From NCBI RefSeq assembly GCF_016097555.1, contig NC_054702.1, positions 111,920,171-111,984,170 on the forward strand: a stretch of DNA of 64,000 nt, read 5' to 3'. The stretch is from Gigantopelta aegis (taxonomy: Eukaryota; Mollusca; Gastropoda; Neomphalida; Peltospiridae). Positions within the stretch are counted from its first letter, which is position 1. Each line of letters opens with the position of its first letter. The notes below the pieces were generated by a model. The model saw nothing but the letters and a program-made list of their open reading frames with translations, was not told the origin of the DNA and did not search any database. Both the position numbers and the translations under genes were made by a program. Below, in pieces: positions 1 to 64,000 of the stretch.

Positions 1-1405
1 TAAGATTTCCCTACTTGAAGTGGTAAATAAATGCTTTGATCTGTTACTGAGTAAGCCAGTATAAGATTTCCCTACTTCAAGTGGTAAATACATGCTTTGA
101 TCTGTTACAGAGTAAGCCAGTATAAGATTTCCCTACTTCAAGTGGTAAATACCTGCTTTGATCTGTTACCGAGTAAGCCAGTATAAGATTTCCCTACTTC
201 AACTGGTAAATACCTGCTTTGATCTGTTAGTCAGTAAGCCAGTAAACAATTTCCCTACTTCATGTGGTAAATACTTGTTCTGGTCTGTTACTGAGTAAGC
301 CAGTAAAATATTTCCCTACTTAAAATGGATCTGTTACCGAGTAAGCCAGTAAAATATTTCCCTACTTAAAGTGGATCTGTTACTGAGTAAGCCAGTATAA
401 GATTTCCCTACTTGAAGTGGTAAATAAATGCTTTGATCTGTTACTGAGTAAGCCAGTATAAGATTTCCCTACTTCAAGTGGTAAATACATGCTTTGATCT
501 GTTACAGAGTAAGCCAGTATAAGATTTCCCTACTTCAACTGGTAAATACCTGCTTTGATCTGTTAGTCAGTAAGCCAGTAAACAATTTCCCTACTTCAAG
601 TGGTAAATACTTGTTCTGGTCTGTTACTGAGTAAGCCAGTAAAATATTTCCCTACTTAAAGTGGATCTGTTACCGAGTAAGCCAGTAAAATATTTCCCTA
701 CTTAAAGTGAATCTGTTACCGAGTAAGCCAATAAAATATTTCCCTACTTAAAATGGATATGTTACCGAGTAAGCCAGTAAAATATTTCCCTACTTAAAGT
801 GGATCTGTTACCGAGTAAGCCAGTAAAATATTTCCCTACTTAAAGTGAATCTGTTACCGAGTAAGCCAGTAAAATATTTCCCTGCTTAAAACTTAAAGTG
901 GATCTGTTACCGAGTCAGTCAGTAAAATATTTCCCTGCTTAAAATGGATCTGTTACCGAGTCAGCCAGTAAAATATTTCCCTACTTAAAGTGGATCTGTT
1001 ACCGAGTAAGCCAGTATAAGATTTCCCTACTTAAAGTGGATCTGTTACCGAGTAAGCCAGTAAAATATTTCCCTACTTAAAGTGGATCGGTTACCGAGTA
1101 AGCCAGTAAAATATTTCCCTACTTAAAGTGGATCTGTTACTGAGTAGCCAGTAAAATATTTCCGTGCTTAAAATGGATCTGTTACCGAGTAAGCCAGTAA
1201 AATATTTCCCTACTTAAAGTGGATCTGTTACCGAGTAAGCCAGTATAAGATTTCCCTACTTAAAGTGGATCTGTTACAGAGTAAGCCAGTATAAGATTTC
1301 CCTACTTGAAGTGGTAAATACTTGCTTTGATCCATTACTGAGTAAGCCAGTATAAGATTTCCCTACTTCAAGTAGTAAATACCTGCTTTGATCTGTTACC
1401 GAGTA
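1..1405. repeat. Minisatellite (61-bp and 46-bp units) built on the R-Ras exon 3 / intron junction
   Basis: About 25 head-to-tail copies run from the left edge to the R-Ras exon at 1383-1485. Long units are 61 bp; short units are 46 bp and lack an internal block of about 15 bp. Read on the minus strand, a long unit contains the exon's last codons (L-A-Y-S-V-T-D-Q-S) followed by CAG/gtattt, the splice donor, and about 35 bp of intron. The short units have lost the CAG/gtattt donor. The array is therefore made from the exon end plus the start of intron 3 and lies downstream of the exon in the direction of transcription. It continues beyond the window. Confidence 0.9.
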
Positions 1406-1485
1406 AGCCAGTAGAAAACCTTCTCCTGATCTCATGTATTGTTCTCTCATAGCACTGAATTCTTCCTGACCAGCTGTGTCCAAAA
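1383..1485 (-). CDS. RRAS2: R-Ras-type small GTPase, coding exon 3 (switch II region)
   Basis: On the minus strand a pyrimidine-rich tract ending in ttttcag precedes the exon, and CAG/gtattt ends it. The 103-bp exon starts with two bases completing the isoleucine of [11 protein letters not shown] and reads through the G3 box DTAGQE, the switch II helix and [14 protein letters not shown]. Its phase joins exon 2 exactly (exon 2 leaves one base). The glutamine of DTAGQ, needed for GTP hydrolysis in Ras proteins, is present. The residues match R-Ras more closely than M-Ras or classical Ras. The exon's last 30 or so bases are the seed of the adjacent minisatellite. The following exons (NKxD and SAK boxes, CAAX end) are outside the window. 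Confidence 0.92.
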
Positions 1486-1867: not shown

Positions 1868-1993
<126 letters not shown>

Positions 1994-2984: not shown

Positions 2985-3665
2985 TAGATAGATAACAATT
3001 TAACGTGTCCATATACCACTAGGGTTTCGGACACGCCCATCCAGAGTCCGACCTCCGATAAGATCGGTGGCCTGACTCGGGATGAGGGGAGGATAGAGTT
3101 GAAAATGGGCAGAATTTTGAAAATAGCTATTAATAAAAAAGTTAATAGAATTAAAAAAATAAATAATTAAATAAAAAGTTACAAGCCAAAAATAAAAAGA
3201 ATTGACTGCTCAGCCGAATATTTATATAATTTGGAGCATTTTAGATGGACAGTCTAAAAATAAATAAGAGAAAGAAGAGAGGATTGGACTATTTAATAAT
3301 ATTAAAAAAAGAATAATTTTGACATATAATTTTGAATGGAGGTCTAAAAGTTTAAAGTCCGAACTGTATGGTCCGGGTGGGGGGGGGGGGGGGGGGGGGG
3401 GGGGTGAGTTTAAGGTGGGCGGAATTTGGAATACGAATTTAGTAGTTAGGTCAAAGACCTAAAGCCAAAATGAGCTCATTCATAGAACTCATGTCTGGAC
3501 AAAAATTTAAGTCCAAAGAACAAAATTAGAGTGCTCGACCAAAAGGGTTTTAAGGTGATTTAAGCAATTTAGACGGGCTGCCAAAATAAACTGTGTCGGA
3601 CTGTTTACAAAAAAAAATTAAACAAATAATAATAATAAATTAAGGTCCAACTAAGCCCTTGGAAC
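2985..3665. other. Low-complexity intronic DNA with poly-G tract
   Basis: Holds a short (GATA)n, a head reading cgtgtccatataccactag, and an uninterrupted run of about 27 G at 3377-3403. It lies directly 3' of the 184-codon minus-strand ORF and may be the untranslated end of the same repeat-borne unit, but no terminal repeats or target duplications were found. Confidence 0.35.
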
Positions 3666-3674
3666 AGTTGGCGA

Positions 3675-4229
3675 CTACGTGGACAAGATGAAGTGCTTGG
3701 CGTTGAACTGTGGCACCAGTTTCCTCCAACGGTGGGCTAGCAAGGTCTTAGCTAGCTCGACATAATGGGTGCCGGCGATGATCTTCAGTACTCTGTGAAT
3801 GGTGTAGTTATCCATGTCTTCGAAGAGTATTCCCTGTCTGTAGAGATCATCTCGGCGCGACGTCACCACAAGTCCAAACTTCCCGTCTCGTAGTTCCATG
3901 GCGTAGATGGCACACTCAACTCCGTCAGGAAACTTCTTAAAATTGCCCTCAAGAATGCCTCCCGGCAGTGAGCTGGTGTCCGAGGTGTCCCCGACCAAGT
4001 ATCGAGCGTACTGGCCCTTGATCTTGGAGATGGCTAGGCTCCAGGCAGCGTCCCTGCCCCGGGCGGTCGCGGAAGGCCGGGCCTTGGCTGGCTGGTCACT
4101 ACTCGGTGGGGTGACGGCCTTCGGCTTCACAGCAGCACCATCCATAGGGGTCTTGGCGGGCCCCCCCCCGGGGGTGGAGGACTCAACGCCGACCACCTCG
4201 AAGGGGTTGGAACGGGAGACACACGCCAT
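3675..4229 (-). CDS. Unidentified 184-residue ORF, possibly mobile-element encoded
   Basis: This ATG-initiated minus-strand ORF is not recognised. Residues 1 to about 60 are rich in Pro, Ala, Ser and Lys, like a disordered linker. Residues 65-184 look like a compact domain: it includes GQYARYLVGDT, a segment LRDGKFGLVVTSRRDDLY, and a C-terminal helix-like LAKTLLAHRWRKLVPQF. The ORF is markedly GC-richer than its surroundings, which fits a coding history or recent arrival. An in-frame TGA lies about 20 codons upstream of the ATG. It sits in R-Ras intron 1, antisense to nothing known. It could be a gag-like or accessory protein of a retroelement, a retrocopy exon, or a chance ORF; mobile-element origin is the favoured inference. 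Confidence 0.4.
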   Translation of the reverse strand: MACVSRSNPFEVVGVESSTPGGGPAKTPMDGAAVKPKAVTPPSSDQPAKARPSATARGRDAAWSLAISKIKGQYARYLVGDTSDTSSLPGGILEGNFKKFPDGVECAIYAMELRDGKFGLVVTSRRDDLYRQGILFEDMDNYTIHRVLKIIAGTHYVELAKTLLAHRWRKLVPQFNAKHFILST

Positions 4230-6540: not shown

Positions 6541-7310
6541 TGTGAACATGACAAAACACACATGCACCAAAACATTAGCACAAGATAGCACGCACAACAG
6601 AAGCTGAACATGACATAGCACACACAACATAAGCTGAACATGACACAGCACACACAAAAGGACATGAACATAACATAGCTCACACAACAGGACCTGAACA
6701 TGATATATAGCATACACAACAGAACTTGGCACATCAATGACAACAAGACCTGAACATAACATAGCACAAAAGCTGATCATGAGAAAATAATCACATTTTT
6801 CCTAATGCAGCAAGGTATCCTTTATATGCACTTCCCCACAGACAAAACAGCACATACCACGGCCTTTATCCAAGTACTTGCGACAGAACCTGAACATGAC
6901 ATAGTACTGACAACAGAACCTGAACATAACAGAGAACTCACAACAAAACCTAAACATGACGTGGCACACACAACAGAACCTGAACATGACATAGTACACA
7001 ACAGAACCTGAAGAAGAACATGACAGAACACACATACAACATACCATGATCATGACATAGCACACACAAGAGAACTTGAACATGACAAATCACTCACAAC
7101 AGACGCAGAAAATAATTTGGCACACACAACAGAACCCAGAGAGATCACTGAACACACATCATAACCTGGAAAGATCACTGAACACACAATATAACCTGGA
7201 GAGATCACTGGACACACAACAGAACCCGGAGAGATCATCAAATACACAACAAAACCAGGAGTATGCACTGAACACACAACAGAACCCAGAGAGTATACCC
7301 AACAGAACGT
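6540..7310. repeat. 30-bp minisatellite block A
   Basis: Imperfect tandem copies of about 30 bp built on 'acacaacagaacctgaacat' and, from 7100 on, 'acacaacagaacccggagag'. Because 30 is a multiple of three, long spurious ORFs appear in several frames on both strands; they are repeat artefacts, not genes. The second subtype recurs at 9275-9560. Confidence 0.85.
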
Positions 7311-9274: not shown

Positions 9275-9560
9275 AACACATAACAGAAACTGAAAAGATT
9301 ACTGGACACACAACAGAACCTGGAGAGATCACTGAACACACAATAGAACCTGGAGAGACCACTGGACACACAACAGAACCTGCAGAGATCACTGAACACA
9401 CATTATAACTTGGAGAGATCACTGAACACACAACAGAACCCGGAGAGATCACCAAATACACAACAAAACCAGGAGTGTGCACTGAACACACAACAGAACC
9501 CGGTGAGTACACCCAACGCACAGCAGAAGCTGTAGGGGTTACTGTTCACTCAATATAACC
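9275..9560. repeat. 30-bp minisatellite block B
   Basis: About nine copies of 'cacacaacagaacctggaga' plus 'tcactgaa', the same unit as block A's second subtype. The plus strand reads as ten-residue repeats of the type TTEPGEITEH, a by-product of the 30-bp period. Confidence 0.85.
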
Positions 9561-11012
9561 TGGAGAGAATCCTGCATACTTAACAGGTGGACATGGTATG
9601 GAGTTCACTACTTCTGGATTTGATATTTAGTATACACCCTCATTGGAAATGTAAACCCTATATCATTTGAATGAGCTTCACTTGAACCCGCAGTATCCCA
9701 AACCAATAAGCTGCTAAACATAGTTTCTTCATTAAAGGATACCAGTTTCAGTTTGCTTAACTATTCTGGTTTGTCTGTTGCACTAGCTGATAAACCAGGT
9801 ATTCTTGAAACTAGTGAAGTACACCCTGAAGCAGCAGAACCAGGAACTATCTGCGCAAAGAACACAGAAAGAACACTGCACACAACATAACATCAGCTTT
9901 TCTGATGACTCATCAGGAATGAATACTTGCCAAGAAAAAGAGGTTTTGTAAGGACAAGTCGTCTGATTCTGATGCACCATCATTAAACATTGAACATGGA
10001 GCACTACCAACGGTGACCAGATACAGTCACACAAAATCAAGGGTGGGTAAAAGAAAACAAGGATTTCACGAGTCAGAGTAAGGTTTTTTTTACATTATTA
10101 TTTTGTTCAATTGGTAATTTTATTTATCGTATTATTATTAACACAAGTAAAATAACTTTTTTCACGTAATATTTTGTTTAAGTAATGATTTTATTAATAC
10201 GTACTTCTACTTGTATTCCTTTTTGAATGTTTGCTTCTAAATATTTTCTATTTACAAGCTTTCTCCTTTTTAAAAATAAATATGTGATTTGCAAAACTGA
10301 AATGTTTTAGAAGTGATGGTTCTTTCAGAATAAATATAAAAATTTACTTGATATACTATTGGTCGTAAATGACGCATTTAATTTAATCATGAATAATTGT
10401 CGTAACTACAACTATTTAAGCAAATAACTAAAACACCTAATATGATATAAATACCGCAAATATACAAAGAAATCGTAAATATATTCAGTTTTCATTGTCA
10501 TTAAAACAAATTCGACATCTTAACTACTGATCAAGAAAAAAAATTCTTCATTATCTCGGCTTTTTAAAAATGAATTTTGATGCACTTACGTCCTTCTGGC
10601 TCTCACGCAACAATATCCATACCTGTCCTGTACTACTATAGGCAATTTATCACATAAAAATATTTAGCATCAATTGTTGCTCTAAACTTCTTTGAGAATT
10701 CAATTGTTAAGACATGCAATATATATACCTTGAATCACATACATTTTGTACAACAAAGTATAACAAAAATAGAACATATAGTTACTTTGTAACAAAAACA
10801 GTTTACAACTTATAACATGGCTTGTTTAGTCAAATAATTGGTGGTAGGGTGTATGGGTGTAAAATAAATATATTAAAAAAACCCATCTGGGTCACCACTA
10901 CCACATACCCTGCAAGGTACAACCCTAAATAACATGCTGCTAGCAATAACATAAAATAACATGGACAATAGTACTTAACATTAATAACAAACCAGATGAT
11001 TGGTGAGGAGTT
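9561..11012. other. R-Ras intron 1, 5' part, no gene seen
   Basis: AT-rich intronic DNA. I find no conserved coding segment, RNA gene or bounded mobile element. Confidence 0.45.
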
Positions 11013-11014
11013 AC

Positions 11015-11119
11015 CTGAATAAACTGGATAGTTAAGGCACTTTTTCCGACACCACCGCCCCCTACAACCACCAATTTGTAGCTCTGGCTGTGACCCCCAG
11101 AATCTTGATTCCGGGACAT
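11015..11119 (-). CDS. RRAS2: R-Ras-type small GTPase, coding exon 1 (start codon and P-loop)
   Basis: The minus-strand ATG at 11119-11117 opens a 35-codon exon ending CAG/gtaact at 11015. After a short polar N-terminus (MSRNQDSGGHSQS) it encodes YKLVVVGGGGVGKSALTIQF-IQ. The G1/P-loop GxxxxGKS binds the GTP phosphates. The GGGGVGKSALTIQFIQ run, with phase 0 at the exon end, is typical of R-Ras, RRAS2 and M-Ras. With exons 2 and 3 the visible protein is 98 residues long, collinear with the family. The N-terminal extension is shorter than in mammalian RRAS. The protein should act at the plasma membrane, but its lipidation signal is outside the window. Confidence 0.93.
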
Positions 11120-14199: not shown

Positions 14200-17100
14200 T
14201 AGTTTTTACAGGACAGTTTGCGTAATACACAACGGCATATCAAAATGAAATCACGAGTCATATGCCGGTGGTCCATCGTCGGCAATTGACCACATCTTAG
14301 TTCCTAATTCCATTAATTATATATGCTACTGTAGATAATGAATGTTCTCTCTCATTGTTAGACCATAAACCAGTTATATGTTCAATATCAGCCAGTACGT
14401 TACCATGCAGTCAATCCAACCAAAAAGGAAAACCATCGTGGGAAAAGGCCAAGAGACTAAACATTATAAGTGGCTATACTTTCGCCGTCTCTCATATGTT
14501 ATGGCCATTAAATATTCCAAAACAGAACGCTACCAAAGCTGAAATTATTATTTTTTATGAAACAATTATTAATATTTTAAAAAGTGCAGCTTTAGAAACC
14601 ATACCTACTGTCAAATTTAATAAACACACCAAGCCCTACTGGACTAAGACAGTTAAAGAATGCCATGCTGAAATGTCTTTTCGTAGGAGGCTGTGGCTAG
14701 CTGAAGGCAGACCTCGTGGGATGCAGTTCTCCACCTTTCAGATGTACAAGCAAGCAAAAGACATATTTCGATCAAATCTAAACACGGCGTACTTGAGCCA
14801 CGAGACAGAAGCATATGCTACCTTAGATGAGGAGTGTAATCTCAATTATAAGTCGCTTTGGGCTAAACTGAGGAACAAAAAGAAAAGTAGTTTTATCATG
14901 TCTCTCAATATTGCCGACAAAACAATTACTCACCCCGAAGATATTTGCAATGCCATGGCAGATCACTTTAGCAATGTATTTAGTGATACGACAGAAAACC
15001 ATTTTGATGACAACTTCAAATCGTACTTAGAAGAAAAGGTATCCAATTTTAAACGGCACGCATTAACCTCAGATGAAGAATTCTGTATATCTGCCTCTCT
15101 AGTTAAGAAAATATGCTCTAACCTGCCAAACAATAAAGCCTGTGGTTCCGACGGAATACTCTATGAACACATCAAACACGGAGGCTCTTATCTCTTCTTT
15201 TGCCTGGCACGACTTTTCTCACTTATTATTAACAACAATTGTATTCCTGATGAATGGCACCTTGGTGTCCTTGTCTGCATATTCAAGGGGCATAACAAGT
15301 CCCGATTAAACTGTGACTCTTATAGGGGTATTACACTTCTTTCTGTGATCTTCAAGATATTCGAAAGTGTTCTGGACTCCTTAATGCCGCAGTTAAAAGC
15401 AACTAGAGTGTATCCCAATAATCATCAATGCGGATTCCAACGCGGTCTTTCAAGTCTGGACACGTCGTTCGTGCTTCAAGAAACCATTAATCACTACAGA
15501 GAGCGCAGTGACTGTACTAGTGTTGCATTTTTGGATAGCTCGAAAGCTTTTGACACTTTGTGGCATACAGGCTTAATGTTTAAATGGTCAGAAATTGGAC
15601 TCTCTCCTAAAATCTGGATAATATTGGACAGTATATACAGTAACGCCAAATCCTCTGTCCTGGTAAACAATATTTATTCAAGAAAATTCAGACAATCTAG
15701 GGGACTGTGTCCGGGTAGCATGCTTGCTCCAAAATTGTATGTGCTATATATAAATGATTTACTAAACAAATTAAGTAAGTCAAAGAAAGGATCAATGATT
15801 ATGGATGTTCATATAACGTGTCCAACACAAACAGAAGATATTGCCCTCGTTTCTCCTTCCCCTCGTAACATGCAAGACATGCTTCTGATGTATGAACAGT
15901 ATAGTTCCAAATGGCGATTTACATTCTCATCTCAGAAAAGTCAAGTCATCAACTTTGCCAAAGAACCTGATCCAGTGTTTTTTCTTTATAATAAACAACT
16001 TCCAAATACAACTTCTATTAAAAATGTTGGTATAACAGTCCAAAAACACTTTGATCACTGGGAAAGGACAATGGAATCATGTAAAACAATAAAATCTACA
16101 AGCATGGCCCTCCTGCAATCCGGCTGTCATCCATCTGGTCTCAGCCCAATCACAAGTGTAAAACTCGTAAAGGTACTATGTCTGGGAACATCTCTATATG
16201 GATGCGAATTATGGAACGATATTTCAAGGAATGAATTGTTAGCATTAGAACGTGCATTTAGGTTCTCTATTAAGTATATTCAGGGTTTGCCCAAACGAAC
16301 TCGAACAGACATCTGCCTGGGATTGATTGGTATCACTTCTATTGAAGCAATAATAGACATGCACAAGTTATATTTTCTGGGTCACCTCCTACGGACCCCA
16401 ACTTGGACCTTGGTACATAAAGTTATAACCAGTAGGCTGCTATGTTTTAAAAACAAATGTGTTACAACTCCTGTAGGTTTTATAACAGATATACACAAGA
16501 TTATGTGTAAATACAAACTTTTAAATCATCTAATTGATTTCTATAATACGTCAATATTTCCATCGAAACATATATGGAAACGACTAGTTAAGAAAAGCGT
16601 GTTTGATTTTGAAGAATTAAAATGGCAAACACAAATCTCGTCTTCGCCAGACATCAGCCATTTTCTGCAACTTCATCCCAATTTAAATATCCACAAAGCA
16701 TGGCAAATTTCTCGTGTGAAGCCATTGTTAAAAGAACACGCACATCATGTAATTAATGTATGCGCTTCGTGGCGACCTATGTCATGTGAAGGAGTGTGTC
16801 CCCTCTGTCACTTAATCTATTCTGATTTGCTGATACATGTTATATGTCATTGTCAATTTATATCTGAAATTAGAGACGAATTCTGGATATCTCTTCTGGA
16901 CATCGGACCAGTAGAACTCAGTGTCGTTCTTCACAATCTTCCCGATTCTGTTTTTATTACTAAGATATTATCTTGTGAACCTCCAATTAATGTTGATGAC
17001 TCGATAGAAAGTACTTACTGTGAAACCGTTATCTATTACATTCATCTACTAAGCAAACAATACTTTGAAGCTACCATAGCAAGTGATATTGTATTACCCC

Positions 17101-17274
17101 ATAAACTTTATGTGCTCGTATTTGAATCACTGTGTACTCATGGTTCGATGCATGCTCTACTTATCCACATTTATCATAGTTTTATTTATTAACTTATTGT
17201 ATTCTTGTATGTTTGTATGTATGTAATGAAATGTATTTATATGTTACAACTCTCTGTTTAGAGGAATAAAGACT

Positions 17275-25640: not shown

Positions 25641-28600
25641 GTATATAGTTATCACAGCCCTCAAAATTCAGATCATTTTGATACAGCAATTAAGTTCAAA
25701 TAATAACAAAATAAATACCTTGTTATCACAGCTGTTGCAGATTGATTTTTCTATTGAATATTGTTGTGAATTTTGAGGGCTGTATAAATTTATGTTAACA
25801 TTTGGTAAACTCACCACAGAGATTTGAGAAAAGTGACTTGGAGTTACCTAGAGTTTATTGTACTTACGTTTACCTATTTGTATTGTGTGTATAAATTAAT
25901 AATATAATTATCTAATGTCTTGCAGACCTGATATTGAATTACTTCCACAAACACCTCATGCAAAGAGATGTAGACGAAAAAGGGTTTTGACTAACAGAGA
26001 CAGTGAAAAACTTGGGACAGGATCAAGGTATTTTGACTTGGTTCTATGTGTATTTAACTGCAACCATTATAAACATTACATATATTAATATAGCAAAGTC
26101 TTTTCCCAAATTATTACAAAAGAAAATTAGATACTGTGATTTACAGGTTATCATAGAAAACAGACAATTCTCTTTTTCTTTCTTTTTTTGAAATAAATCT
26201 ATAGATCCAATACATGAATGTAATATCAATTAGTAAATCATAGATGGACATGAAATTTAGTGAACTACAACATTTCGCACCTTTTTTTTTTCAAATTCCG
26301 TTTACATTTCACACCCAACCCCACTTTATTCAGATTCCTGTATCGTCCATAGAGTATTTTCATATTTTGTTGGTGTCGTACTGTCGAACTATATCGTTTC
26401 ATTCTTCGGTTGGTAGAGGGCATGTTGTATCCTGGTACTTGGGGCAGACAAAAGGTCGAATGATTTTATACAGGTGGTGTTGTTTCTGTTGAGACAAGTG
26501 TTTTCGCTGCTCCATTTAAGCGGGGCATACGGCCCGCTATTGCATTTTACCGCCCTGTTTTCGTGTTGTGCAGTCCCATTTTCGTGTTGTGCCGTCCCCT
26601 TTATTTTTTCTCCACCCTCTTTATTTTCCCACATCCTAATATATTTTACAGCACCCAGCTCTGCCATTTCAAATGGCACACTTTTTTCACACACTGAAGA
26701 AAAAAAATTGATCAATCTGCACACTGGGCATCAAAGAAAACAAGCTGCGGTGTGTACGAAAGTGCAACTCAGCAAAAACTTCAGTAGCTAACGATATTTA
26801 CCGTAACATAATTTAAATCTATTTTAACAGTGTCTGTGGTGTCCCATACCAGTATTCATTTATATATTTGATACAAACAATTAAAGTTATATTTTATTTG
26901 AGCAATAAAACCACTTTATTTTTATCGTTTTGGCAATCTCCGACTGAGAACAGCATATCAACTTTTACTTCCACGTCAAACTTTGAGCCACTTTTACTCA
27001 GTTTCTGATGTCATGCTAAGTTGAAGATTTTCGCGTGTGACAGCTCATATATACATACATATATGCATGCATGCACAAATATATACACATATATATATAC
27101 ACAGAACTTCATTACTAGGTCACTGTAACCTACTTTTCACGGTCTACTGCACATAAACAGTAAATACTTGTCCGGACCATATCTTGCATACAGATGCATA
27201 CAGGACCATGAAACCTCACATGTAGGAACAACTTGGGATGGTGGTGTGTCACATACAATTACTAGGTCTCTGTGATACAAATAAATCAAATCATTTATCT
27301 ATATTCTGAACATCATATGGTTTTCCATCAAACTCCTCACGGGCGTAGCATGTATGTCACCGGTACTCTTGTTACAAAAAGAAATATTACAAATATTACA
27401 ATTAATGTTTGAAAGGCTAATTTCTATTATATTTTCTTACTCTAAATTGAAATACTATTTCAGTACTGTTGAAAGTGAAAAAGACAGCAGCACTCCTTGT
27501 AAGACAACTCGACAAACAAGGACACGGCATGTGAAACAGACGAGTCCTGCTGCAACACGCGTAACGAGGAGCACCAGGTCACGATTAAACTTCACTAATT
27601 CGAGCTGTCCTTCCTCGTCCCAATCGAGCAGCCCAGATGGTGATGTCAAGACATCCGCTACCAAGCCCGTGTACCATGTTGTGTTTAGTCCTCCCCCAGC
27701 TTCTCCGGGCAGCATTGTTCGGCAGAGAACGTCTGCATACGAAGCTATGTTGGAGAAGAAGCACAGTCCAAGCCCATTAAAACAAGCAAGAAAAGTTGCA
27801 ACAAATGATACACCAGAACACCATTCCATGCCAAATACACCAGAAACTTTGAAACCCCTCAAGGTGATAGGTAAAGTGACGTCGCCGAGTCTACGGAATA
27901 GTGCAAGCAAGGTCGCTTCCCAAAGTCTGAGGGAAACATTTGAAATTACTTCTAATGAAAATACACCTAGGAATTCAACGCCTGATGATCATTTCAATAA
28001 CTCACGGGTGCTTAAGAGTGTGGAAAATAAAAGACGTTCTTCTAGAAAATCTCTGAAAGCTATGACGAAGCAGCTAAGAAAATTGTCTGGAAGACCCAGT
28101 AAAAGGTTAAGTCGAAACCCGCTCATGGAGTCATTCATAGACCAGGTAAACCATGGTTTGTAACATTAATCAGAAAGAATACTGTTAATTAGCAGACCTG
28201 TCAAAACAACTGTGGCACAGTAACCTTTGTGTAGTTATTCGGTATCTCTGACCTGTATTTGAATCCTAAAGTTTTTGTACATAAGTATTAACATAGATCC
28301 GACTTTGTTAAAATAGCAACAGATTCATAATTGGAAGAAAAAAATGTGACGTTAAAAGCTAAGTGAAATTTTATCTACAGTAATTTTGTTCACAGCAATG
28401 GATAGAAATCAGAAAATCTACCAGCAAGACAGTGGCAAATATCCATATGGTAATAAGTGTAAAATATTAAAATTACAATCCCCATACTTTTTAGACAATT
28501 CCATATTCAGTAGATTTATTGTTTTTATTGGGCCACTTGGCTTTTGGCATCAGATTGTTTTTCCGGACTTCTTTTTTTAGAAGGCCTTGAGATATTGAAC

Positions 28601-31600
28601 TGAAATTTTGTATATAGTTTTATCATATCCCAGGGCTAGCTATGGGTCAACAGAAAATTTCACCAAATTATCTATAAAACTTCAAAAACTGCAGAAACCT
28701 AGTTTAGAGGCACTGATTTTCTGTTTCAGATTTTTCTCTTTTCCGTTTCATAATGTTACAAATTCTGTTTTTTCCCGTTTCAGTATTAAACAAATTCTGT
28801 TTTTGTTTCACTCAAACACACACCGCAGTTAATTGCTGGTATAAAATAAATAAATATGCAATGAGGCAAAACATGTCAGTAGTTTGTATTTATTTTCGGT
28901 TTTGTTTACGATATATCGGGAAAATAATTACAAACGATCACACTATAAACCACTTCCCTTGTATAATTTATTTTGAACAAAGCCTGGCATACAATATGCA
29001 ATTACTACATTCCTTTGTGAGATCGGAAATATGGCAATGCCGCAAATGTTAAAAATTAATAAGCAAACATAACATAATATATCTTTCACTTGAGTAAATA
29101 TCAGACAATTTTAGCTCACAATGTTCGGTTTTTCCCGTTAAATCGCCGGGAATAAGCGAAGAAAACACGACTGGTAAAACGTCTAGATACTCTACGTTAA
29201 ACATTTGGCGTAACATACAAAGGTACTAGTGTCGTAGCGTAGCACAGGCAGATGTCGGTGTCCATAGTTTCTAGTTCGAAAAATAAATGTTAATTAATCA
29301 AATGCGCTATTTAAAGTTAACTAATGTTTTGGGAAAAAATCGGAAATTCCGTTTCAGATAGGTATTTCCGCGATTCCGCAATCGCAGAAAATCAGTGCCT
29401 CTACAAGTTAAATTTTCTGACAAAATATCAATTATTTCATGAAATTATTTCGCCAAATGAAAATAAAGTTTGCCAGTTTTTAAAATTCGCAATTGGCGAA
29501 TTTGGCGAGTGCCAGAGCTAGCCCTGTATCCTGTTACAGATGAAGTTTATTTTCATGGCAATTTACCCATTTCTGACAGAGTTATGGCCCTTGAACTTAG
29601 CAGATATGAAATGTTTTTTTGCAGATTTCTGTTTTGCAATACCTGAAAATATTGAGGTGAAATTTTTTATATAGCTTTATCATATACTTTCATTGATCAA
29701 GTTTAACTTGCATGGTGATTTACCCACTTTTCACAGATGTTTGGCCCTTGAATTTAGGAGATAAGAAAAATTGTTGGATCAGGTAGGGGACGTGGTTTGC
29801 TTTAGCAATACTCTCAAAATGCTTGTTTTATTAGAAAATAACTGGGGTTTTGCAAGTTTTTAAGTTTAAAGTGATGATTTGGCTCAATTTTCTGATCACC
29901 CAGAGCCATCCCTGGTAATGGGTGTGAAATATCAAAGTTACATTCCCCTTAGTTTTAAACTAATTCTATATTAAGTAAGGTTTTAATATTGTATTTCGGG
30001 TCCACCCTGATATATGCATATATATATTAAAACATTTTATTTTTTTATGAATATTTTACAGGTAGAACCTATGCAGTGTGAAGAGGCTACCAAAAGACCA
30101 CGTACTAGATTACGCCTGAAAAAGACAACTCTGAATAATGTACATATTTAATAATTTCAACTAAATATATTTGATTAAATAAACAAATCAGGGATGGCAA
30201 TCTTTTGTAGAATCCCACAGATTTAGTCATTCTTAGGGTTGATGTCATAAGTCTAAATGGGATAACAAATTTGTTTAAGTGGTGTGGTGTATATCTTTAA
30301 TTCTAACAGTCATCAGCACAATCCTAACCATTGCTGTAGCATTTATTTCTGTGTTATTTATTTATTGTTTACCATTGATGGGTTTCTTAAAAGTACTAAA
30401 TATTAGTATTAATATTTGAAGATAACACAACTGAAACTGAAACTTCCATAGCCTGGTTTTTGTGCCCAGTGTGAAACCTCTAGATGTCACTTTTAGACTA
30501 ATACCAGCAAGAACCGTCTAAGAGAATGCCATGCACAAAAATATGTAGGTTCTTTCTGGTTACCAAACTTAAAAGAATTTGAAGTGTTAGCTGTCAACAA
30601 AATGAAACTCTTATGCCATAGTTTGTAATTTACATTGTTTCAGAGAACAGTAGAGAAAGCACTTTGCAAATTGTTTATTCATGGCTAAATCCAATCTAAA
30701 TGTTTAAAGTTCTCCAGAATACATCATTAATCTTTGATGAGGTTCCCATTTCATGTGTGGTATCTTAATTGCATTTTCTTCACATTCAGCTTGAACACCA
30801 GTGTTTTTGGTGTTTATTTACATTTTGATGCAGGATGATGTAATATGTTACATTTTAATAGTTTTCCGTCTATCTCTGAGTGCTATCCATCTGATATCAT
30901 CTTATTTAGGGTAATCATATTAGGGTTTTTTAATTATTATTAGTAGTAGTTTTTAAATGCTTAAACATTTTTCAGAAGACTGTTTCAGACGTTTCTGGTA
31001 GAGAAGAAAGTGTCCCAACCAGTTCTGAATCCAACACAGAACGAGATCATGGTGTTCATTTAAGTGCTGATGATAAAGAAAATAAGGAAACTAATTTCAA
31101 GGTTCATGTGCAATCCTCCACTGAACAGCGAAAAACATCCATGCGACCTGAAGTATCAGATATGTCTGATAGTGAACATGAAACGTTTAGAGTGCCCAGA
31201 ACAAAAACAAGGGTTAAGAAGGTGAAACGACTTAAAGTTCAAGGTTCTGAGAGTGATTTGCCCAGAACGTCTTGTAGTGACTCAGACACTAGTACTGAAA
31301 GACCGGTGAGACAGAGCACACGTACAAAGACGAGAAAGAATAAGGCCATTGAAAGTGAAACTGAGAAACATTCTGGATCTGTGAGTTCTGAAGACGCCGT
31401 CAGTGTCTTCCAGAACTGTGGTTCTATACCTACCGAATTTCAGATGCCCGACAACAACAGAGAAAAGTCGGCACAAAGAGATAGTGTGGACTCTGGGATT
31501 GTCAGTACTCACTGTAGTGCCAGCAATCTGGACCTTTCATCTAAAGGCATTGGTGCAGTTAATGTTGACAATACAATTGAAGAAGAGAATGTGTCTACAT

Positions 31601-34600
31601 CGGCAACAAGTTCTGGGAGGAGGGCAAGCAACAAGTCTGACAACAGGAACATTAATTCAGAGCCAGAGAATGAAATACGTACAAGGTTTGTACATAAACA
31701 AATATTTGTATTAAAGGGATGTCCTGAGTTTTCCACTGTTACGTTTCTGAATAACAGTCCAACAATCCTTTTTTAACAACTAAAATGACATTAAACACAT
31801 TTTCTTGTATAAATGATCAGTGCCTATACATGTACATGCAGTGTGTTTCTGACCATAATAATGTCTGTAGTAGCTGTCTTCATTTTATTATGTATCAAAT
31901 ATTATTTCGTATGTACAAAATTCTTTTGGGGTTAAATTTGGTTTGTTAAGTCACAGATATGCTAAACAAGAAAATTCATTTATAATATAAATTTAATAGT
32001 TGAAAGAGCATTGTTAGTGGAGAACATGTTACAATGGCAGCAAACTCGGGACAGTCTCTTTAATTATGAACTTATACATTGTTTTGATTTGCATGAGAAA
32101 TGAAAGCTTACAAAAGATAAATAATGTATGCACAAGTGGGCATACCAATTGATGTCATTAATGGTACAATAATTTAAAAAAACAAAAAAACAAGCAGTCC
32201 CTTTTCGCTTACAAGTTTTAGAAGTCTGGACTCAAGGCTAACAAAATGTTGAAACTTTAATGTCGTGTGGATGTCACTAAAGATTTGGGTCTACTTCTAT
32301 AAGCACATTTCAAGGTCTAATATTCTAAAAATGGAAAAACTATGATTTATAATCTTTCTCTTATTTTATGACCAGTCTTCTCACTATTTCTGTACACTAA
32401 AAAACCCTAAAATATAGGTTATCTCCTTTCTTCTGTCTGTCTGTCCGTCCATCTGTCCCACATAGTTTTCTGGATTTTTTTTACACAATGTCTTGAAATA
32501 TTAAGCTGAAATTTTGTGTATAGCTTTATTATGTACTGTTATGGATGAAGTTCGACTTTCACAGCGATTTACCCATATTTGACAGAATTATGGTACTTAG
32601 GATATATGGAAATTTGTTTTCCGGACCTTTGAGATGACATTTTATATATTGCTTTATCTTGTACTGTTACAGATCAAGTTTAACTTTCTTGATGATTGAC
32701 AGTTATGGATAGCCCTTGAATTTAGGAGATATGAAAATTTGTTAGGTCTGGTAGGGGACATATTGCTTTAGCAGTACTCAGAATGCTTGTTTCAAACTGG
32801 ATCATCAATTTTTATGAGGGGGGGTTTTGTGAGGTTTTTCAGAACAAAAACTAGGAAACGACAAGCAGAAGAAGAGATGAAAAATGCAACTCCCAAACGG
32901 TCATGTACAGGATCTATGACCAGCTTTGCTAAAAATGTGAGTATAACCTGGTTTATTCAGTTAAAATCCAACCACCACTTCTACAGTTAAAACCTATATG
33001 TGCCAGCTATAGAGATCTGTTCTACTTTCATAATTTTGTTATTAATGCTACAGTGTATATGATACATAACCTATGTACTATGTATGTTTGGCTTGTATGG
33101 AAAGAAGAAATAATGTTTCAAAAACATTGTTGATTTTTATCAAGCTTAAATGGAGAACATTTCATGTCAATTTTAAGGGGACTTGTTTATTTTAATGTCT
33201 GATACAAATTTTATTATTTTGAATGATTAATAGCATACCAATATAGCTACTTCTGGTGAATATGTTCATGCATGTTATCTACTTGTATTTGTATTTTAGG
33301 AACAGAATGATCACAAACAAAGTTTAGAGCACAAGTCGTCAGAATCAGCTGGGTGAGTTGTAACATATAGTTAACAATTTTTATATTCCCTGTTTTGTAG
33401 GGAAATGACAAATAAAGAAGTTTTTAGGGTTTTTTTAAAGTATGTGGTTTGAGTAGTGCATGTAAATTGGTATATCTAAATTTATTTTTTGATTGATGCT
33501 GTTTATGACTGAATAGTTATTTTTGTTGCAGCGACAGTGGAAACAGTGATGGTGATTCTATGAATAACACACCTTCCCCAGAGTGTCCAAGAGACAAGGT
33601 ATGTCTTTAAATATACTTGTTGTTTAACCGACACAGATAACTCCAGCATCTGTAATCCAGTGGTTTTTAGTATGTAGACCATCAGTCTGTTCGACTTATG
33701 TCTTTTTATTTTCAATAAATGTTATTTCAATTTTATAAAAATTATTGAAAATCATGCATTAAAATTACTTTTTGGCTAAAAGGAAAAAATGACATTTTTC
33801 ATGTGATTTGTTTTTCCTGCCTGTAATTGTAATGAAGTATTAAAAATGATCAAGTATGATCAAGTATGGATAATGATGTCATCCTTGTTTTCAAATATAG
33901 TTAAGAACGTTTAATGTAGGTATTTTTGTCAGATGCTTTGCATCACTTAAGTGAAACAAAAAGTAGGAAGGAAGGAAGGAAATGGTTTATTTAACGACGC
34001 ACTCAACACCTTTTATTTACGGTTATATGGCGTCGGACATATGGTTAAGGACCACACAGATACTGAGAGAGGAAACACACTGTCGCCACTTCATGGGCTA
34101 CTCTTTTCAATTAGCAGCAAGGGATCTTTTATATGCACCATCCCATAGACAGGATAGCACATACCACAGCCTTTGATGTACCAGTCGTGGTGCACTGGCT
34201 GGAGCGAGAAATAGCCCAATGGGCCCACCGACGGGGATCGTTCCCAGACTGAACGCGCATAAAACAAGTGCTGTACCAAAAGGTAGGAATCCAAAGTATT
34301 CAGTGAAATAGATATAACATTATGGCCCATAGTTATTAATTTAAACAGAGTGTATCAAGCAGCATTATGTTCGGTCTGTCTCTAAAAAAAGAAAGAGATT
34401 GGATTTGTCACTTAGTTTAATGATGTTGCTTGGATGAAACTTTAAGAAATAAAAAGTATTCAATTATATATATATATATTTTTACATTATGATCCTAATA
34501 TTTTTCAGGTTGTTCACCCTCGTTCTTACTCATTTATGAGTAGTATGAAGTATAACACTCCAAAACCATCAAATATTTTATCTGGCATGATAACATCATT

Positions 34601-37600
34601 TATTAAGAAGACCACAAGTACTCCAACACAAGTATCGCAACAGGTAAGCCTTTGGTATAATCGATTTTAGTGCATTACCTTGTTGTCCAGTACATTAGTA
34701 TTGGGCTGTTAGACCCAGTGATTTTCCACGATCGTGGAAAACGGGCGGAATTCCCATTGTGAAACGAAATATACATTTGGAAACGGAATTACGATTTTCA
34801 GCGAAGTTTATAAAAAAAACTGTTTTCATTTTACTATTGTCACATGCTGTAAAACTGACGATTAGTCGTTATACATTACTATTGGCACACGCGTAATGTC
34901 TTTTGCCTGGAGTGAGTTCAGCAGGCGAGATATCTGGCCCGACGTCACACCAGTGGACATACTGTACACTGTATTCCCTTATTCCATATATCCCGCTAAT
35001 TTGCATACGACACTCTCCGAAAAAAAGAAGAAATTATTAACAGGAAACTGAAGACAACTTGTATCTTTAAATTTAGTTTTCGGCTAGTATTTTCACTTGA
35101 CAGCAATGGTGGCACATCGTGGTCATTCTCAGGGATCGATTGCAGATTGTGTCGGATAATTTGGTAATAAATTTGATCGTTTTACCAACAACGAAAATCA
35201 CCAAATATTGGGATATGAATTGTAGTTCATTTTTTTAATAAAAATTCTGGTCAGAAAACCACTGTTATTGGGAATAATGAACATATGGACAACAAATGCT
35301 CGTAAGTAAACAACATTTTCAATCCTCTTTTTTTTAAAATAATTTTAATCAACATTAACTACAATATAAAAATTAGAAAAATAGTACTTACTGATTCAAA
35401 CATGAACTTTATTTTTTGTATTTATAAAACATTTAAGTGAATTTATTTGAGTAAAAATTGTAAACTCAACATGGTTTTTGTCAAAAATTAATCCAGTAGT
35501 CTAAAGGTTAAGAGACTGATTTTTATGCTACACATTAAACTGAATGAAGACTTTGGGAACCAGTCAAAATAGTTTGCAAACGTTTCATGAAAAACGATTG
35601 GCTGAACGTAGCAATGTTACTTTATTTCCGCTGTGGTATGCGGATACTTCAGACTGTCAAAGCATTGTTAATGTATTGATTTCTATGAAGTTGTTTGGTT
35701 ATTCAGGTCATTACAATTATAATATGTACCAGAAGAATCATGAATAAATAAAATTTTCTCCTTTAATTTGTCACAACTTGTGTTATTTAACTTGTTAATT
35801 ACATATTATATTCTGAAACAGAAATGAAACAGAATTTACAAAAACATGAAATGAAAAATAGCTTCTTTTTTTTAACGGAAAACCACTGGGTCTAGGTTGT
35901 TTTGATTAGTTTATGTATAGTGTCTATTGGTTATTACTGTTCAGTAGGTGTTGGGCTTTTTTTATTAGTTTATGTATAGTGTCTATTGGTTATTACTGTT
36001 CAGTATGTTATGTGCTGTTTTGATTAGTTTATGTATAGTGTATTGGTTATTACTGTTCAGTATGTGATGTGCTGTTTTCATTAGTTTATGTATAGTGTCT
36101 GTTGGTTATTACTGTTCAGTATGTGATGTGCTGTTTTCATTAATTTATGTATAGTGTATTGGTTATTACTGTTCAGTATGTGATGTGCTGTTTTCATTAG
36201 TTTATGTATAGTGTATTGGTTATTACTGTTCAGTATGTGATGTGCTGTTTTCATTAGTTTATGTATAGTGTCTATTGGTTATTACTGTTCAGTAGGTGTT
36301 GGGCTTTTTTTATGTTTATGTATAGTGTCTATTGGTTATTACTGTTCAGTATGTGATGTGCTGTTTTCATTAGTTGATGTATAGTGTCTATTGGTTATTA
36401 CTGTTCAGTATGTGTTGGGCTTTTTTAAAAATTAGTTTATGTATAGTGTCTATTGGTTATTACTGTTCAGTATGTGTTGGGCTTTTTTAAAAATTAGTTT
36501 ATGTATAGTGTCTATTGGTTATTACTGTTCAGTAGGTGTTGGGCTTTTTTATTAGTTTATGTATAGTGTCTATTGGTTATTACTGTTCAGTATGTGTTGG
36601 GCTTTTTTTTATTAGTTTATGTGTAGTGTCTATTGGTTATTACTGTTCAGTATGTGATGTGCTGTTTTGATTAGTTTATGTATAGTGTCTGTTGGTTATT
36701 ACTGTTCAGTATGTGATGTGCTGTTTTGATTAGTTTATGTATAGTGTCTGTTGGTTATTACTGTTCAGTATGTGATGTGCTGTTTTGATTAGTTTATGTG
36801 TAGTGTCTATTGGTTATTACTGTTCAGTATGTGATGTGCTGTTTTGATTAGTTTATGTATAGTGTATTGGTTATTACTGTTCAGTATGTGATGTGCTGTT
36901 TTGATTAGTTTATGTATAGTGTATTGGTTATTACTGCTCAGTATGTGATGTGCTGTTTTGATTAGTTTATGTATAGTGTCTATTGGTTATTACTGTTCAG
37001 TACGTGTTGGGCTTTTTTTTATTAGTTTATGTATAGTGTCTATTGGTTATTACTGTTCAGTATGTGTTGGGCTTTTTTTTTTAATTAGTTTATGTATAAT
37101 GTCTATTGGTTATTACTGTTCAGTAGGTGTTGGGCTTTTTTTATTAGTTTATGTATAGTGTCTATTGGTTATTACTGTTCAGTATGTGATGTGCTGTTTT
37201 GATTAGTTTATGTATAGTGTCTGTTGGTTATTACTGTTCAGTATGTGATGTGCTGTTTTGATTAGTTTATGTGTAGTGTCTGTTGGTTATTACTGTTCAG
37301 TATGTGATGGGCTGTTTTGATTAGTTTATGTGTAGTGTCTATTGGTTATTACTGTTCAGTATGTGATGGGCTGTTTTGATTAGTTTATGTATAGTGTCTG
37401 TTGTCAGGGGTGCACAAATGTGAAATTGTGATAGTTGCCCGGTGGGCAACCAGTAGCTGAAGTTTGGTTGCCCAACATCATCTCTTGGTTGCCCACATAT
37501 TTCATAAAACGTTTTATGAATATAATTTTGAACTGTCTTTAAAATGAAACTGAAATTTAAAATGTTTTTATTATTATCATTAACATTATTTATCTACAGC

Positions 37601-40600
37601 TCATCATCGCTTAGGCTGAAAAAAAGTTTGTTTTGTTAACGACACCACTGGAGCACACTAATTAATTAATTAATCATCGGCTATTGGATGTCAAACATTT
37701 AGTAATTCTGACTCGTCATCAGAGGAAACCCCTCTACATTTTTCCTAATGCAGAAAAGGACCGGCCTCGGTGGCGTCGTGGCAGGCCATCGGTCTACAGG
37801 CTGGTAGGTACTGGGTTCGGATCCCAGTCGAGGCATGGGATTTTTAATCCAGATACCGACTCCAAACCCTGAGTGAGTGCTCCGCAAGGCTCAATGGGTA
37901 GGTGTAAACCACTTGCACCGACCAGTGATCCATAACTGGTTCAACAAAGGCCATGGTTTGTGCTATCCTGCCTGTGGGAAGCGCAAATAAAAGATCCCTT
38001 GCTGCCTGTCGTAAAAAAGAGTAGCCTATGTGGCGACAGCGGGTTTCCTCTAAAAACAGTGTCAGAATGACCATATGTTTGACGTCCAATAGCCGATGAT
38101 AAGATTAAAAATCAATGTGCTCTAGTGGCGTCGTTAAATAAAACAAACTTTACTTTTTTTTAATGCAGCAAGGGATCTTTTATATGCACTTTCCCACAGA
38201 CAGGAAGGCACATACCACAGCCTTTGTCCGGTTGTTGTACACTGGTTGAAACGAGATAAAAAAAAACCAATCAGCTGAATGGATCCAAGAGGTGGTTCGA
38301 TCTCGCTTGGGCTGTCACAGTCATAATACTTTGATGAACTCCGGGCTCATCCAGGATTAAAAATACCTGTTGCCAAAAAAATTGCCAAATGGGATTTTTA
38401 TTTGCCCTAATGAAAATGTTTTAGCCAAAATTGTTTTGTGTAGTACTGTATAGAGTATTTATATATGAATATGAAAATGTATCTTTTTTAGCTAATTATG
38501 TACAAACTGGAATACATCTGAATAACAAAATTATCCCCGATCAAAATCAAAGACAGCAATGGGGGTAGGGGCAGTTAATATATTACTTTGATTTTTCAGT
38601 GGGTGAGGGGAGATATGCAGAGTTGGAAGCCAATGCCCTCTGCAAACACACCCAAAATTCTAAGGCCTATGGCATTAATAAAAATCTGAGAGCCAATACT
38701 CTTCTTTTTTTAAACAGTAAAATAGCAATCTTTATTTTGGTTTGAACTGCTTTTAATTGTATTTTAAAATAACCCCATCTATTCCACACCCCAACAATTT
38801 CGTAATTTGCGCCATTTTGTTGATTTCCGCATCGTGTTAAATGCTTGTTGTTGATTTCAGCTTGTAAAATACGTAGCCTAAGAATGCTGACTTCATGTTA
38901 TGACAACTATCCATTTACATCAAACGGTTTTGATTAAAAAGATAATGAATTAAAATTTAACGGTCTTTTTAAAATCTAGCAAATTTTGAGATGTCACCTC
39001 ACAGTCAACAAATGTATATAATATTTTATCTAACAAATATCATGATTATTTTTAACTAATTGTATACATATACATCAGTGTACGTTTAACCGCAATTTGT
39101 ATAAATACTGCATGTTCCTTTCCCGCTATCGGGAAATGCATGAGTGCGAAATTAACAAAGACAACGGAAATAAACAAACAAAACAGCAATTAAGTATTCA
39201 TTGATGCGAACAACTATTTGGTGGTGGGTTTTTTTCTCACAAATTTACATCAAGATTTACTTGCGTGTAATCGTATTGTTTAATGTCTGCAACACACTTG
39301 GCAACTCGTGCAGTTAATTTAGAAAATCGGGTAACTTCAAATATCAATATCACAACAAAGGTAATTTTCTGATTGATGTGAAAGGATATATTGTTGTAAT
39401 AAATATTGTTTACTGCAGATATAATTATCCGCAATATGTGCTAACGACATGCTGGGTATATGTGTGCGTTCGCGCGTATGTATGTGTATCGACACTTGGT
39501 TATTGTTTGACTGGTTGGTGAAGTCCTACCGTTTTGACGATTCGTGCACGTGGGTGTGCGAGCACGTGGAAATGTGTATATACATGTTTACAACTACACA
39601 TGTTCATTGCTTGTATGTATTGAAAATACCCTTGCGTTACACCAAAGGATTTGTGTGAGCGAGTTTACGTGCATTTATGATTATAGTCGGACATTTATAT
39701 ATAATTTTTGTTTTTATTAGTAATGTTATTATTGTTTAAAATTAAATGCTACGAACCACACCATTTCATAATTGTGGTTATACGTACTGTTTTACCCTTT
39801 TTATTATCTGCTTTTTTATTCTGTCGTATCTTCTACTCTAAATTCCCCTTTCTTTTTGAATGGTTACAGATAAAAAACACATATGAAGTTGTCTATGATA
39901 AGATTGCTTTATTGACAGGTGGGTTTTGCGTCGCTGCTGATTATAAGAAATGCACATAGTATTTGATACGTTTAATGTACCAGAATTTTGTCAAGCTTGC
40001 TGCTATGTATATCTATTAGTATTATTTTGCTTCATATTAGGTGAACCCCTTGCCTTGCCCATTCACAGTTTATTTTTAATATTGTTACTTGATGTCGGTT
40101 GATATAGTTGTGTACCGGGCAAGAGTATGGTTGCACCATAGTTTTGGATGCGGCAAACTGATTACCGATCTGATGAGTTTGTATTTTTATTTATGTTGTA
40201 GTTTGTTAGGAAAACGAGGTATAACTTTAGTTCTTTTACAATTGTTTTTATCTGGTGATGTCCATTTGAATCCAGGTCCACCCATTACGGTGTCATCTAG
40301 TATATCTGTTGCCCACCTGAACGTGAATGGACTTCTGCCCAAAGTAGATCTCATTGAAACGGAAATGTGCGATTTTGATGTAATTGCGATCACTGAAACC
40401 CATCTGAACCCTAACATCTCCAATCAAGATATTATTATTAAAGGATTTCATGAACCATATCGCAAGGATAGGACATATAATAATTGGGGCGGAGTAGCGG
40501 TTTATGTAAAAGACAATATAATATCTAAACATAGAGAAGATATGGATGTCCCCGGTCTGGAGGCTCTCTGGGTGGAATTGAACCGTAATAAATGTGAAAT

Positions 40601-63899: not shown

Positions 63900-64000
63900 A
63901 CAAAACACCTTCAGTATCTATCGGCCAACATCTATGTATCAAAACACCTTCAGTATCTATCGGCCAACATCTATGTACCAAAACACCTTCAGTATCTATC
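63900..64000. repeat. 39-bp minisatellite next to the ATP5PB acceptor
   Basis: Two and a half copies of caaaacaccttcagtatcta plus tcggccaacatctatgta start immediately upstream (in gene direction) of the penultimate exon and run off the window. Confidence 0.9.

Follow-up and report, generated by a model that had tools for sequence, protein, structure and literature searches.

A minisatellite in register with an exon–donor boundary in an R-Ras2-type gene of the gastropod Gigantopelta aegis

Results

The minus strand of a 64,000-nucleotide stretch of the Gigantopelta aegis genome (contig NC_054702.1, 111,920,171 to 111,984,170; here the window, with positions counted from its first base) carries an R-Ras2-type gene of this deep-sea vent snail, in which a minisatellite repeats the boundary between the end of coding exon 3 and the splice donor that follows it. 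The tandem array runs along the minus strand from 1413 to 1, starting inside exon 3 and extending through the following intron, and the analyses below confirm that this exon-boundary minisatellite in an R-Ras2 intron is real. We think it probable that the array arose by tandem duplication of a 61-base-pair (bp) piece of exon 3 and its donor, and that it is largely neutral, still changing and responsible for at most low-level mis-splicing.

Structure of the array

Cutting at the recurring motif TACTGGC over positions 1413 to 1 gave 27 units including the exon's own, 11 of them 61 bp long, 14 of 46 bp, and one each of 45 and 53 bp. The left edge of the window truncates the array, so that the intron holds at least 26 copies and exon 4 lies beyond the window. 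The 61-bp unit consists of 31 exonic bases, from the last two bases of codon 89 through the first two of codon 99, and 30 intronic bases. An earlier interpretation of the same DNA, made from its letters alone (hereafter the sequence-only reading), had described the unit as exon end, donor and about 35 bp of intron; the first two components stand, while the intronic part is corrected to 30 bases.

Identity of the units to the exon's own copy (unit 0) ranged from 83.6 to 98.4% of aligned bases. Eleven of the 27 units, counting unit 0, aligned across the exon/donor boundary, and the other 16 were gapped there by 15 bp. A 24-base probe from the exonic part, allowed up to three mismatches, found 26 matches between 38 and 1413, every one on the minus strand, against a mean of 0.00 in shuffled sequence (n = 100); unit 5 escapes this probe owing to a one-base deletion, hence 26 matches for 27 units. 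A second 24-base probe, spanning the donor, matched nine times, always in the array and including the exon's own copy (expected 0.00). Neither probe matched outside the array within the 64-kb window at the same stringency. Alignment and probes thus agree that the copies are in register with the exon/donor boundary, one of the points on which the sequence-only reading had itself proposed to be judged. An origin as a dispersed repeat or transposon finds no support within the window, where the array copies are confined to one place.

Read outwards from the exon, and always on the minus strand, the alignment begins with unit 0 (1353..1413), the presumed parent, with its 31 exonic bases, the authentic donor and the opening 30 bases of the intron. 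Unit 1 (1292..1352; 61 bp) comes next, its donor altered to CAA/GTATTT. It is followed by a run of 14 consecutive donorless units (2–15; 642..1291), aligned as 12 of 46 bp, one of 45 bp and one of 53 bp. Beyond these stands a 336-bp block (306..641) made of 61-bp units 16–19 and 46-bp units 20 and 21, with an intact donor at 549. The 61-bp part of this block then recurs (1..305), accompanied by an extra 61-bp unit, unit 24, and by intact donors at 213 and 152, before the window edge truncates the copy.

The host gene and its exon 3 donor

Joined exons 1–3 encode 98 residues. The coding part of exon 1 (11015..11119, minus strand; M1 to Q35, MSRNQDSGG...IQFIQ), placed by translation and splice-site reading, ends at a donor CAG/GTAACT. 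Exon 2 (1882..1969, minus strand; 88 nucleotides; SYFVTDYDP...ARLD) ends at ATA/GTGAGT, and its joined translation fits the annotated protein. One isoleucine (I) codon is split across exons 2 and 3, and exon 3 (1383..1485, minus strand; 103 nucleotides) ends after the first two bases (AG) of codon 99. All 98 residues are identical (100%) to an annotated 199-residue Gigantopelta aegis R-Ras2-like protein, and the second-closest protein among the best 120 of 7817 hits shares 94% identity with exons 1–3. The closest solved structures are those of R-Ras2 (E = 2.1e-47), followed by R-Ras (1e-42) and M-Ras (8.1e-38). By these similarities the gene is of the R-Ras2 (TC21) type among Ras proteins. The sequence-only reading had named an R-Ras gene; its Ras-type assignment holds, and we refine it to R-Ras2 type, on the minus strand, with exon 3 at 1485–1383. 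In an alignment of 20 proteins of the R-Ras2 family, the residues encoded by the exonic part of the unit are mostly conserved.

In the annotated protein, SFDEI directly follows TDQS, as expected if exon 3 is spliced from CAG/GTATTT with its +1 base at 1382 (1377..1385, minus strand). Donor strength was scored as pairing to the 5' end of U1; this is a crude measure, not calibrated on snails. Among 66 GT sites in exon 3 and the array, the authentic donor is tied for the best pairing (−7.2) with those at 549, 213 and 152, all four being CAG/GTATTT.

Donor copies and the consequences of their use

The 26 intronic units retain CAG/GTATTT in three cases, carry CAA/GTATTT in three and CAT/GTATTT in two, and have lost the GT by substitution in two and by the 15-bp deletion in 16. 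The altered donor of unit 1 pairs with U1 at −3.4 as against −7.2 for the authentic site. The exact copies lie 833, 1169 and 1230 nucleotides past the true donor. The sequence-only reading had spoken of the true donor followed by a series of near-identical donors, which overstates the case: the exact donor survives in only three of the 26 intronic units, the closest such site being 833 nucleotides away. It had also held that read-through would soon meet a stop, and here it was borne out, with the first stop codon beginning 106 nucleotides past the true donor. Use of the unit 1 donor would add 61 nucleotides and shift the frame, and use of any 61-bp-unit donor beyond unit 1 would include the stop at +106; each alternative 61-bp-unit donor would thus bring a frameshift or a stop, so that such splicing would be unproductive however often it took place. 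Two other classes of GT in the units (TCGGTAACA and TAAGTAGGG) pair more weakly with U1, at −5.2 and −4.7 compared with −7.2, and were set aside. The sequence TGACTAACAG in units 17 (520–580) and 23 (184–244), on the minus strand, resembles a branch point with an acceptor AG downstream.

These properties bear on whether R-Ras2 output might be tuned by the array, with far donors yielding unproductive transcripts at a rate set by array length, as reported for ABCA7. Three exact decoy donors are present, splicing from any other 61-bp-unit donor would cause a frameshift or take in a stop, and for ABCA7 both retention of one unit and an effect of repeat length on splicing are reported (PMC5954066). 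Against this, the strong decoys lie so far past the true donor (833, 1169 and 1230 nucleotides) that their use would give an exon of more than 0.9 kb. In addition, no second 100% match, which a read-through isoform would give, was present among the 120 listed of 7817 protein hits. We therefore regard tuning as quite unlikely. RNA folding of three stretches, each compared with 100 shuffles, gave z = −2.29, −0.56 and −1.32, and RNA structure as the purpose of the array was set aside, the z-scores not being convincing.

History of the units

As a matter of judgement, unit 24 was treated as ancestral. Of its 61 bases, unit 0 departs from unit 24 at just one, an intronic base at which each of the 26 other units has the state of unit 24; the exonic halves are identical at 31 of 31 bases. 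This near-identity, together with the conservation of the repeated stretch across 20 R-Ras2 proteins, points to the exon as the source of the copies: since the stretch is conserved in the family, the exon should be old and the copies derived. In all 16 donorless units the same 15-bp deletion goes together with a T at unit position 45, a base that none of the 11 others has there. A common deletion with a linked T is most simply explained by one event that was later multiplied.

Units 16/17 and 22/23 are identical at 121 of 122 bases, and units 18/19 and 25/26 at 122 of 122. With one difference in 244 bases between two copies of the block, growth of the array looks recent, and the near-identical duplication suggests that the array is unstable. 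Near-identical blocks of about 300 bp could be miscounted in an assembly, and an assembly artefact, meaning a spurious array or an incorrect copy number, has to be considered. The published G. aegis assembly was built from PacBio reads of more than 4 kb by Canu correction, wtdbg2 and polishing (PMC7895826). The units, however, differ from one another at many places (as their range of identity to unit 0 attests), and the visible 1.4 kb is shorter than the reads of more than 4 kb, although the full array is longer than the window shows. We regard an artefact as very unlikely.

Of 23 changes, 16 fell in the 31 exon-like bases and the remainder in the 30 intron-like bases (P = 0.055), which gives no sign of the copies being held to the exon sequence. 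Among the distinct exon-like changes, seven of 14 were synonymous, compared with 26 to 32% expected (P = 0.05 to 0.13, depending on the weight given to transitions); such an excess was tested for because it would be expected had variants passed through the coding exon.

A further possibility is that gene conversion from the intronic copies rewrites protein residues 89–98. Residues private to the Gigantopelta protein were sought against 119 listed homologues (from the best 120 listed of 7817 hits). A91 and Q97 are the only residues of exons 1–3 absent from all of these, and both fall within the repeated codons; the array carries the same codons, and the exonic halves of units 0 and 24 match at every base. 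Over the whole protein there are six private residues, two of them within the repeated codons, and first estimates for the coincidence were P = 0.009 for exons 1–3 and P = 0.03 for the whole protein. In a control on the 119 other proteins, however, eight of 56 private residues of exons 1–3 lay in the repeated codons (eight of 27 from residue 13 onwards). The repeated codons thus gather private residues anyway, and the chance odds for exons 1–3 rise to about 0.02 to 0.09. One other protein (P0112) shows the same private-residue pattern, and a simpler order of events, with the substitutions first and the array later, accounts for the shared codons. We hold such conversion to be improbable. Slightly more doubtful still is the wider proposal that the exon end and the intronic copies form a single exchanging family, which would both set splice-site competition and rewrite ten Ras residues, with A91 and Q97 as its traces.

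Selection on the donor

The sequence-only reading had suggested that the loss of the donor from the 46-bp units may reflect selection against competing sites. The evidence does not bear this out, the donorless units sharing a single deletion and the donor not being significantly enriched for changes: among five derived 61-bp types, five of 23 changes fell in the 9-base donor (P = 0.24), and with each distinct change counted once, three of 17 did (P = 0.47).

A narrower form of the proposal, in which selection against competing donors favoured the spread of the donorless 46-bp unit beside the exon, draws on the arrangement of the array. Fourteen donorless units in a row and the altered unit 1 stand between the exon and the first intact decoy, and donor position −1 is altered in four of the five derived 61-bp types. 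The deletion most simply arose once, however, so that its spread amounts to a single draw; neither count of changes in the donor 9-mer departs significantly from chance, and intact donors survive farther out, one of them having been re-duplicated. That the near units are all changed or donorless is a layout that would suit selection, with too few independent events to decide, and we consider this account unlikely.

Discussion

On the interpretation we favour, a 61-bp piece straddling the end of exon 3 and its donor would have been duplicated head to tail into the next intron, with later growth of the array through slippage in replication or unequal exchange. A 15-bp deletion centred on the donor would then have shortened one copy, which was amplified to at least 16 copies, and a roughly 300-bp block would have been duplicated in a recent event. 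Splicing most likely uses the first donor, whose pairing with U1 no other GT here exceeds and which gives an exon of normal size. The few intact far donors would be largely neutral, and transcripts with a frameshift or a premature stop would arise from them rarely at most.

Several observations weigh against this largely neutral account. Three far donors are identical to the authentic one, and the folding z-score of −2.29 for the first 214 nucleotides of the array hints weakly at structure. At position 14, most of the eleven 61-bp units carry a base other than that of unit 24 (A in seven of 11). Donor position −1 has three states among the 61-bp units (G in four, A in three, T in four), and the only other three-state site in these units is the same position 14, which lies within a CpG. 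The stretch of 833 nucleotides past the true donor that is free of an intact decoy would also suit mild selection. Finally, use of the first donor, as read here, would rest on the annotated gene model.

Repeats that supply or border splice sites are known in humans. In human IFI6 (6-16), two downstream units of a minisatellite act as donors and three messenger RNAs result (PMC4526556, citing Turri, Cuin and Porter 1995). The snail array is likewise a minisatellite with several intact donor copies, but the alternative donors of IFI6 make isoforms, whereas splicing from those of the snail 61-bp units would cause a frameshift or take in a stop; moreover, most snail units are without an intact donor. 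The variable number tandem repeat (VNTR) of human ABCA7 intron 18 has a 25-bp C-rich unit starting at GT, and its length ranged from 298 to 10678 bp among the individuals examined (PMC5954066). There too the array flanks an exon and includes its donor, and use of the next unit's donor retains one unit and shifts the frame (PMC5954066); the ABCA7 unit as described is without coding exon sequence, whereas the full snail unit has 31 coding bases. The snail array shares two features with repeats of the IFI6 and ABCA7 kind, namely a donor in register within the unit and more than one intact donor copy.

Two variants of human CBS are also comparable in part. A 31-bp VNTR, for which reduced enzyme activity was reported, lies at the exon 13–intron 13 boundary (PMC1395315), so that both it and the snail array are at an exon–intron boundary, with the CBS unit the shorter. 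In 844ins68, a duplicated intron–exon junction piece creates two competing splice sites (PMC2630376; its text speaks of donor sites, and a title in its references of a 3' splice site). Unlike the snail array, this variant involves one duplication only, and it lies where exon 8 begins instead of at an exon end. Intron gain by tandem genomic duplication, in which the copied segment holds the splice-site sequence AGGT (PMC3443670), resembles the present case in the tandem copying of an AGGT-bearing segment. Some array copies carry AGGT; the snail copies sit within an intron, with no new intron seen, and the protein is uninterrupted across the exon 3 junction in the alignment of 20 proteins. The minisatellite-like repeats of an earthworm metallothionein intron were set aside as a parallel, the text examined giving no tie to an exon end.

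Judged by the make-up of its units, the snail array is of the same kind as the known rare human repeats, and is distinct in consisting mostly of donorless units. No earlier report of the Gigantopelta array was found in open-licence PubMed Central. Set in a conserved signalling gene of a mollusc, the array offers a clear natural example of a minisatellite seeded by an exon–donor boundary. The order of its intact, changed and deleted donors is known, so that the locus might serve as a natural test of distance and strength in donor choice, and if array length varies between animals it would provide a graded allele series.

Other features of the window

Within the R-Ras2 gene, the interval between exons 1 and 2 contains a 184-residue open reading frame (ORF; 3675–4229, minus strand) with no Pfam match at E 0.001. 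It also holds several arrays of a unit of about 30 bp (ACACACAACAGAACC type; 6585–7293 and 9275–9568) and a run of about 30 G at 3375–3404, where the assembly is possibly uncertain. Elsewhere, a plus-strand ORF at 14355–17192 resembles a long interspersed nuclear element (LINE) and encodes reverse transcriptase, and LINE-like ORFs at 40089–42821 (plus strand) encode endonuclease and reverse transcriptase in two frames. Serine-rich ORFs at 27354–28163 and 31108–31776, both on the plus strand and with no Pfam match at E 0.001, are possibly exons of a plus-strand gene. Further tandem repeats comprise 25.5 copies of a 59-bp unit at 35898–37403, with a short array of a seemingly close unit about 7 kb away (44515–44684), and a 39-bp repeat (63901–64000) running up to the window's right edge.
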